Assembly (NCBI GenBank): GCA_027062325.1
Contig: JAMOTN010000047.1
Coordinates: forward strand, 1-6,075
Length of the DNA stretch: 6,075 nt
Direction: 5' to 3'
Source: a bacterium
GTDB lineage: Bacteria; JAMOTN01
How positions within the stretch are numbered: position 1 is the stretch's first letter; each line of letters starts with the position of its first letter. The notes under the pieces are model-generated. The model made no database searches and was not told the origin of the DNA. It saw nothing but the letters and a program-made list of their open reading frames with translations. The position numbers were made by a program, and so were the translations under genes. Of the stretch, positions 1,395 through 2,196 are shown piece after piece.

Positions 1395-1423
1395 TCTTTA
1401 CTCCTAAATTGTCTTGCTATCAA
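1395..1423 (-). promoter_or_regulatory. Weak candidate promoter for the minus-strand envelope genes
   Basis: Reading the minus strand, TTGATA (1423-1418) is followed after 17 bases by TAAAGA (1400-1395). This is a fair -35 with only a 3-of-6 match at -10. Its -35 overlaps the -35 of the rpsF promoter on the other strand, giving a back-to-back arrangement. The call rests on consensus only. Confidence 0.3.
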
Positions 1424-1442
1424 ACAGCGATAATGTTAAAAT
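1414..1442 (+). promoter_or_regulatory. Sigma70-type promoter of the rpsF operon
   Basis: TTGCTA (1414-1419), a 17-base spacer, and TAAAAT (1437-1442) form a good housekeeping promoter. The predicted start near 1449-1450 would give a leader of about 64 bases before the rpsF ATG. It is the only good match in the 161-base divergent gap and faces a tightly packed operon, which fits strong expression of ribosomal protein genes. Confidence 0.6.
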
Positions 1443-1460: not shown

Positions 1461-1504
1461 ACTCCTGCTGCTCCAAATCGGAGCGGCCAAAAGTCCAAAG
1501 GAGG
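1461..1504 (+). promoter_or_regulatory. Leader hairpin pairing with the rpsF Shine-Dalgarno (possible S6:S18 autoregulatory site)
   Basis: An 8-pair stem, GCTGCTCC (1467-1474) with GGAGCGGC (1480-1487, one G-U pair), closes a five-base loop. Immediately 5' of it, CTCCT (1462-1466) is perfectly complementary to AGGAG (1499-1503) of the rpsF Shine-Dalgarno. The two helices stack, leaving an 11-base bulge (1488-1498) on the 3' side. Such a fold would hide the ribosome site. S6:S18 mRNA leaders that mimic the 16S binding site are known in many bacteria. The CCG box usual in that known class is not evident here, so membership is uncertain. Pairing was found by eye; no energy was calculated. Confidence 0.5.
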
Positions 1505-1513: not shown

Positions 1514-1948
1514 ATGAACGAGATTGAAGCAATCATCAAAAACTTTCCAGTCTCTGCAGAAGAGGTAGAGGATGGTATCAGAGCTTACGAAACAATGTTT
1601 ATTATTAACTCTTCAAAACAAGAAAACATTGACAGAGCCCTTGAATGGTTCGAAAATTTCCTAAATCTCAGAAAAGTCAAAGTTGAAAAGTTTGAGAAGA
1701 TCGGTTTGAAAAACTTCGCCTATCCAATCAAACACATGAATCAAGGTTATTACGTATTGTGCGAATTCTGGTCTGAACCAAATGTTCCAGCTGATCTAGA
1801 GGACCAGTTTAAATTGAGGCAAGAAATTTTGCGTTTTCTCATTATTAGGAGAGACGACAAGGAAGAGATGCTCCTCAACCCAAAGAAATTTGAAAAGAAG
1901 CTCAAAAGCAAAAAACAGAAAAATCGCAAAGAGGAAGGTGAGGAGTAA
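1514..1948 (+). CDS. rpsF: 30S ribosomal protein S6, with N-terminal extension
   Basis: S6 binds 16S rRNA of the small-subunit platform as a heterodimer with S18. The 144-residue product has the S6 core beginning RAYETMFII (23-31), continuing through [24 protein letters not shown] (62-85, the conserved AYPI-x-G-YY block), and ending with [11 protein letters not shown] (104-114). A charged Lys/Glu tail (115-144) follows, as in many S6 proteins. The core normally starts within two to four residues of the initiator Met; here 22 residues precede it. Between ATG 1514 and the core there is no in-frame ATG, GTG or TTG, and the Shine-Dalgarno lies before 1514, so the extension looks real. The gene is first in the operon and its stop overlaps the rpsR start by one base. 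The family is certain; the start is well supported. Confidence 0.96.
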
Positions 1949-2196
1949 TGGTTAGAAAGCGTAAAAAAAGAAGCAAAGTTTGCGAATTCTGCAAAAACGG
2001 CGTATTTTATATAGATTACAAGGATACGGATACTTTGTCAAAGTATTTGAACGAGAGGGGTAAGATCGAACCTCGTAGAAAAACTGGGGTTTGCACAAAA
2101 CATCAAAGGCAGCTTGCAAGAGCTATCAAGAGAGCAAGAATAATAGGACTGCTTCCATTTGTGAAAACTCCAGTAATCAAAATCAGCTTCAAGTAA
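1948..2196 (+). CDS. rpsR: 30S ribosomal protein S18
   Basis: S18 pairs with S6 on the platform of the 30S subunit. The 82-residue product has the basic start MVRKRKKR, a CxxC pair (C12, C15) and a CxxH pair (C49, H52) that look like a zinc-ribbon form of S18. It also has the family signature block around [20 protein letters not shown] (28-47) and [21 protein letters not shown] (51-71). Length is normal for the family. The ATG overlaps the rpsF stop (TAATG), with AAGGTG seven bases upstream inside rpsF, so the partners S6 and S18 are probably translated in a coupled way. In many bacteria ssb lies between these two genes; here there is no room for it. Identity is certain; zinc binding is inferred from the cysteines. 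Confidence 0.97.

Follow-up and report, generated by a model that had tools for sequence, protein, structure and literature searches.

A probable member of the widespread S6:S18 leader family, with CCA in place of CCG, upstream of rpsF in a poorly sampled bacterial phylum

The RNA upstream of rpsF in a bacterial contig of 6,075 nt, which we analysed over its whole length (henceforth referred to as the window), can fold so that its Shine-Dalgarno (SD) sequence is paired, and this raises the question of whether it is the widespread feedback leader of ribosomal proteins S6 and S18 or an RNA of another kind. The widespread S6:S18 leader, or S6:S18 complex-binding motif, was reportedly described by Matelska in 2013, Fu in 2014 and Babina in 2015, and CCG is the usual description of the box that it carries. 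We put the probability that the window leader is a member of this family, closing the SD by feedback as originally proposed, at about 0.93, and from membership we infer binding, repression and coupling. It shares with the family the stacked helices, the SD in helix P1, the 3' bulge of ~11 nt, the CC box before the SD and the rpsF-rpsR operon, but differs in having CCA rather than CCG, a P1 that is one pair shorter, and neither ssb nor priB between rpsF and rpsR.

Table 1. Features of the rpsF leader and of the two genes that follow it in the window.
Feature	Positions	Strand	Remarks
Candidate sigma-70-like promoter TTGCTA-17-TAAAAT	1414-1442	+	TG precedes second hexamer
P1 (H1) 5' strand CUCCU (DNA CTCCT)	1462-1466	+	Shine-Dalgarno partner; covaries in other genomes
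P2 (H2) 5' strand GCUGCUCC (DNA GCTGCTCC)	1467-1474	+	stacks directly onto P1
P2 terminal loop AAAUC (DNA AAATC)	1475-1479	+	predicted fold
P2 (H2) 3' strand GGAGCGGC	1480-1487	+	pairs with 1467-1474
3' bulge, 11 nt, CAAAAGUCCAA (DNA CAAAAGTCCAA)	1488-1498	+	presumed S18-binding segment
CCR box, here CCA	1495-1497	+	C1495 and C1496 correspond to C719/C720 of 16S rRNA
P1 (H1) 3' strand AGGAG	1499-1503	+	core of Shine-Dalgarno AGGAGGU 1499-1505
rpsF (ribosomal protein S6)	1514-1948	+	TIGR00166 E 8.4e-21, PF01250 E 3.4e-23
rpsR (ribosomal protein S18)	1948-2196	+	TIGR00165 E 2.5e-29

The gene row in the window is rpsF-rpsR-DUF2232-rplI-dnaB. The likely start of rpsF is the ATG at 1514, 9 nt past AGGAGG, the mechanically called ORF start (GTG 1508) being too near the SD; the end of P1 thus lies ~10 nt 5' of this ATG, in the 5' UTR of the rpsF-rpsR operon. 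The rpsF stop codon (TAA, 1946-1948) overlaps the rpsR ATG at 1948 (TAATG, 1946-1950), which makes translational coupling of the two genes plausible, and rpsR could plausibly be coupled in this way to repression of rpsF. The candidate promoter listed in Table 1 is weak, with 9 of 12 matches where 0.6 such sites are expected by chance in the region; a transcript from it would possibly begin near 1449. Compared with other S6 proteins, the encoded S6 has about 20 additional N-terminal residues (1514-1580) ahead of the usual start, near which there is no in-frame ATG, GTG or TTG codon. In many bacteria ssb sits between rpsF and rpsR; here it does not, and the genome's sole SSB match lies on a different contig (G000:C14:27943-28248).

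The two stacked helices and the 11-nt bulge that had been predicted to bury the SD are real at exactly the positions given in Table 1, and both the minimum free energy (MFE) and the centroid structures of 1450-1530 include them (-23.3 kcal/mol). The fold energy of this segment is just mildly unusual (z -1.77, with 9 of 200 shuffles equally good), as might be expected if a G-rich SD had by chance found a C-rich sequence upstream to pair with. Against such an accident stands the anatomy as a whole, defined as P1 on the SD, P2 directly stacked on it, a 3' bulge of 8-15 nt and CCR near the 3' end of the bulge: among dinucleotide shuffles that retained the SD, 2.5-3.6% showed this anatomy at any score and none of 2000 showed it at the observed pairing score. 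Since, in addition, two family models (see below) rank the leader first in 1.65 Mb of genome, we regard the probability of a chance fold as close to negligible.

The original prediction held that the familiar CCG box was not visible. The box is in fact present, directly before the SD, as CCA: its third base is A and not G, and the two conserved cytosines, C1495 and C1496, are both there. Among 45 leaders that a family model recognised in other genomes, the box read CCA in 25, CCG in 19 and CUCG in one, from which it follows, by these data, that a box need not end in G for its leader to belong to the wider family; the constant feature of the family is the two cytosines, with A as common as G after them. 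The one exception, L189 (genome G109), is a recognised rpsF leader with CUCG in place of CCR.

The window comprises a whole contig, and the leaders available for comparison all came from more distant lineages, outside its phylum; a search of genome contigs for S6 genes of relatives found none. A covariance model (R1) was trained on 15 leaders from lineages other than that of the window, and its alignment (A2) contained leaders of Chloroflexota, gammaproteobacteria and several further families, with the window excluded. Inside the window, R1 scored the leader at 24.0 bits (E 5e-4), the next place reaching 10.7; on the whole 1.65-Mb genome the leader ranked first at 24.1 bits, with an E of only 0.135, and the next place had 16.7. 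When R1 was run with strict filters on 389 other genomes it returned 45 places, 43 of which immediately preceded an S6 gene; an independent figure of 39 of 41 remains when four genomes that had also served for training are left out. The two places without S6 downstream were L183, which stops at a contig edge, and L228, which has no clear S6. R1 is thus specific to S6 leaders. The window leader itself was missed in the strict-filter run, being lost to the filters and the cut-off. A second covariance model (R2), built from the 45 leaders that R1 had found in other genomes, scored the window leader at 32.0 bits (E 4e-7 within the window) and again ranked it first in the whole genome (32.0 bits, E about 1.2e-4; next place 18.1). 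The scan with covariance models for S6:S18 leaders that had been proposed as a check therefore places the window leader first in its genome with both models, and homology gives good support to S6:S18 feedback through burial of the SD. In the 45 leaders, every P1 3' strand contained an SD-like sequence and the bulge measured 11 nt in 26.

Compensatory changes, the other check proposed, were found in abundance in the leaders of other lineages, where both helices covary strongly. In A2, 41 cells were changed on both sides, and none of 500 shuffles scored as high. In the alignment of all 45 leaders (A4), 96.4% of the cells in the two helices were paired and 110 were changed on both sides; again none of 500 shuffles came as high, and slid versions were far lower. 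The nearest leaders by sequence, those of genomes G253, G129, G369 and G220, have in common GCCAAAAGUCCA, after which AAGGAGG comes within a base, and their P1 has one pair more than that of the window, with an extra base on each strand. The bulge of the distant leader in G253 is identical to the 11-nt bulge of the window.

The Rfam model of the rpsF leader (RF02893, RpsF_leader) resembles the window leader in secondary structure and position, yet the window lies below its threshold: scanning the window with E values as high as 10 allowed gave no match (gathering threshold 37 bits), and in the whole genome only a 13.4-bit match elsewhere than the leader. These results would suit a different, convergent class of ribosomal protein leader with a superficial likeness to the widespread one, and a precedent is known, as the S6:S18 motif of Chlorobi is a separate RNA without resemblance to the rRNA site (PMC7247131). 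However, RF02893 gave 110 bits for the E. coli leader and recognised no other of the loci tested, missing at E up to 1 clear leaders outside the gammaproteobacteria (e.g. L006, L008, L012 and L016), and its silence on the window therefore means little. In addition, R1 and R2, although trained elsewhere, single out the window leader from the whole genome, and the order of its parts, the GC/GC base of P2, the 11-nt bulge, the CC box and the position of the SD all fit the widespread leader. By its description, the Chlorobi leader is like that of the window in presumed ligand and gene, whereas resemblance to rRNA is found in the window only (PMC7247131). We thus consider a separate class very unlikely, and the suggestion that the leader might be divergent or of a different class is not borne out: it has the anatomy of the widespread leader, with cytosines in the right place and a CCA found in no fewer recognised leaders than CCG. 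Insisting on CCG, or trusting the narrow Rfam model, would lose many members of the family; a broader model such as R2 would recover rpsF leaders that RF02893 misses. Membership of the window leader means that a known ribosomal feedback device reaches a further, poorly sampled phylum. Three weak matches to other Rfam families in the window (eukaryotic or thermometer) were all far below gathering thresholds and were dismissed as chance.

The two cytosines of the leader are the equivalents of C719 and C720 of 16S rRNA, and in E. coli S18 residues K60, R61 and R63 contact them, K60 and R63 bonding the two bases (PMC4647458). The S18 encoded in the window keeps AIKRAR, including the cytosine-contacting K and R, as judged against the S18 sequences of E. 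coli and B. subtilis. The S6:S18 site of 16S rRNA (C719/C720, beside helix 23a) and the window leader are alike in presenting a two-cytosine box that adjoins a helix. At the matching site the 16S rRNA of the organism has GCCAGUGGCG, compared with ACCGGUGGCG in E. coli; it thus reads CCA where E. coli reads CCG, and the window leader and its own rRNA agree. We considered whether S18 of this lineage prefers CCA over CCG in mRNA and rRNA alike, the mimic having co-evolved with the ribosomal site, and regard this as very unlikely. A general rule by which the box and 16S position 721 co-evolve was rejected: in 21 genomes the third bases (leader first) were AA in 5, AG in 5, GA in 4 and GG in 7, an agreement of 12/21 (Fisher p 0.67, for a small sample and with phylogeny ignored), and clear mismatches of either kind (AG and GA) show that leader and rRNA do not track each other strictly.

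How the leader would act can be proposed by analogy with E. coli, whose leader is identical in anatomy (P1 with the SD, P2 stacked on P1, in the RF02893 alignment) and has a 3' bulge of 12 nt, UGAAUAAUCCGU, followed by AAGGAGC, compared with CAAAAGUCCAA followed by AGGAG in the window. In E. coli, the S6:S18 dimer, and neither protein alone, represses an rpsF fusion about fourfold at the level of translation; repression is abolished by mutating both conserved cytosines, nearly abolished by breaking the SD-pairing strand, and weakened by disruption of P2 but brought back when P2 pairing is restored (PMC4647458). By analogy with E. coli and B. subtilis, we infer that S6:S18 binding and repression occur in this organism too. 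When S6 and S18 exceed free 16S rRNA, the heterodimer would bind the bulge beside P2, with S18 gripping both cytosines in CCA; P1 would then be locked and the SD closed to the 30S subunit, so that rpsF would be translated less and so would rpsR, through the overlapping stop and start. P2 would serve as a stable platform and P1 as the switch.

The different firmness of the two helices could also be read as an RNA thermometer, or as a simple hairpin that masks the SD, needs no protein ligand and keeps the rate constitutively low. The G+C content of the 16S rRNA (61.7%) hints that the organism may be thermophilic, and in a thermodynamic extrapolation over 60-85 °C, which takes the energy model beyond its calibrated range, roughly half of P1 has opened near 75 °C, whereas P2 holds firm up to 85 °C. 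However, any such RNA should lose a 5-bp helix on heating, and a thermometer requires neither a conserved unpaired box nor a conserved bulge length, both of which are conserved beside S6 genes in unrelated bacteria. A hairpin without a protein ligand is therefore highly improbable, and for the S6:S18 leader the same property would, if the organism is thermophilic, make P1 a poised switch that is closed by the bound protein.

Further downstream, 60 nt past rpsR and inside the ORF called as DUF2232, at its 5' end, the window contains an inverted repeat (2255-2304) whose perfect 12-bp stem (AACCACCGCCGC/GCGGCGGTGGTT) encloses a loop of 16 nt and is followed by a T-rich stretch (TTTTGATTTT). Its fold is much more stable than those of shuffled sequences (z -4.56), and it may be a terminator or attenuator that parts rpsF-rpsR from the remaining genes.
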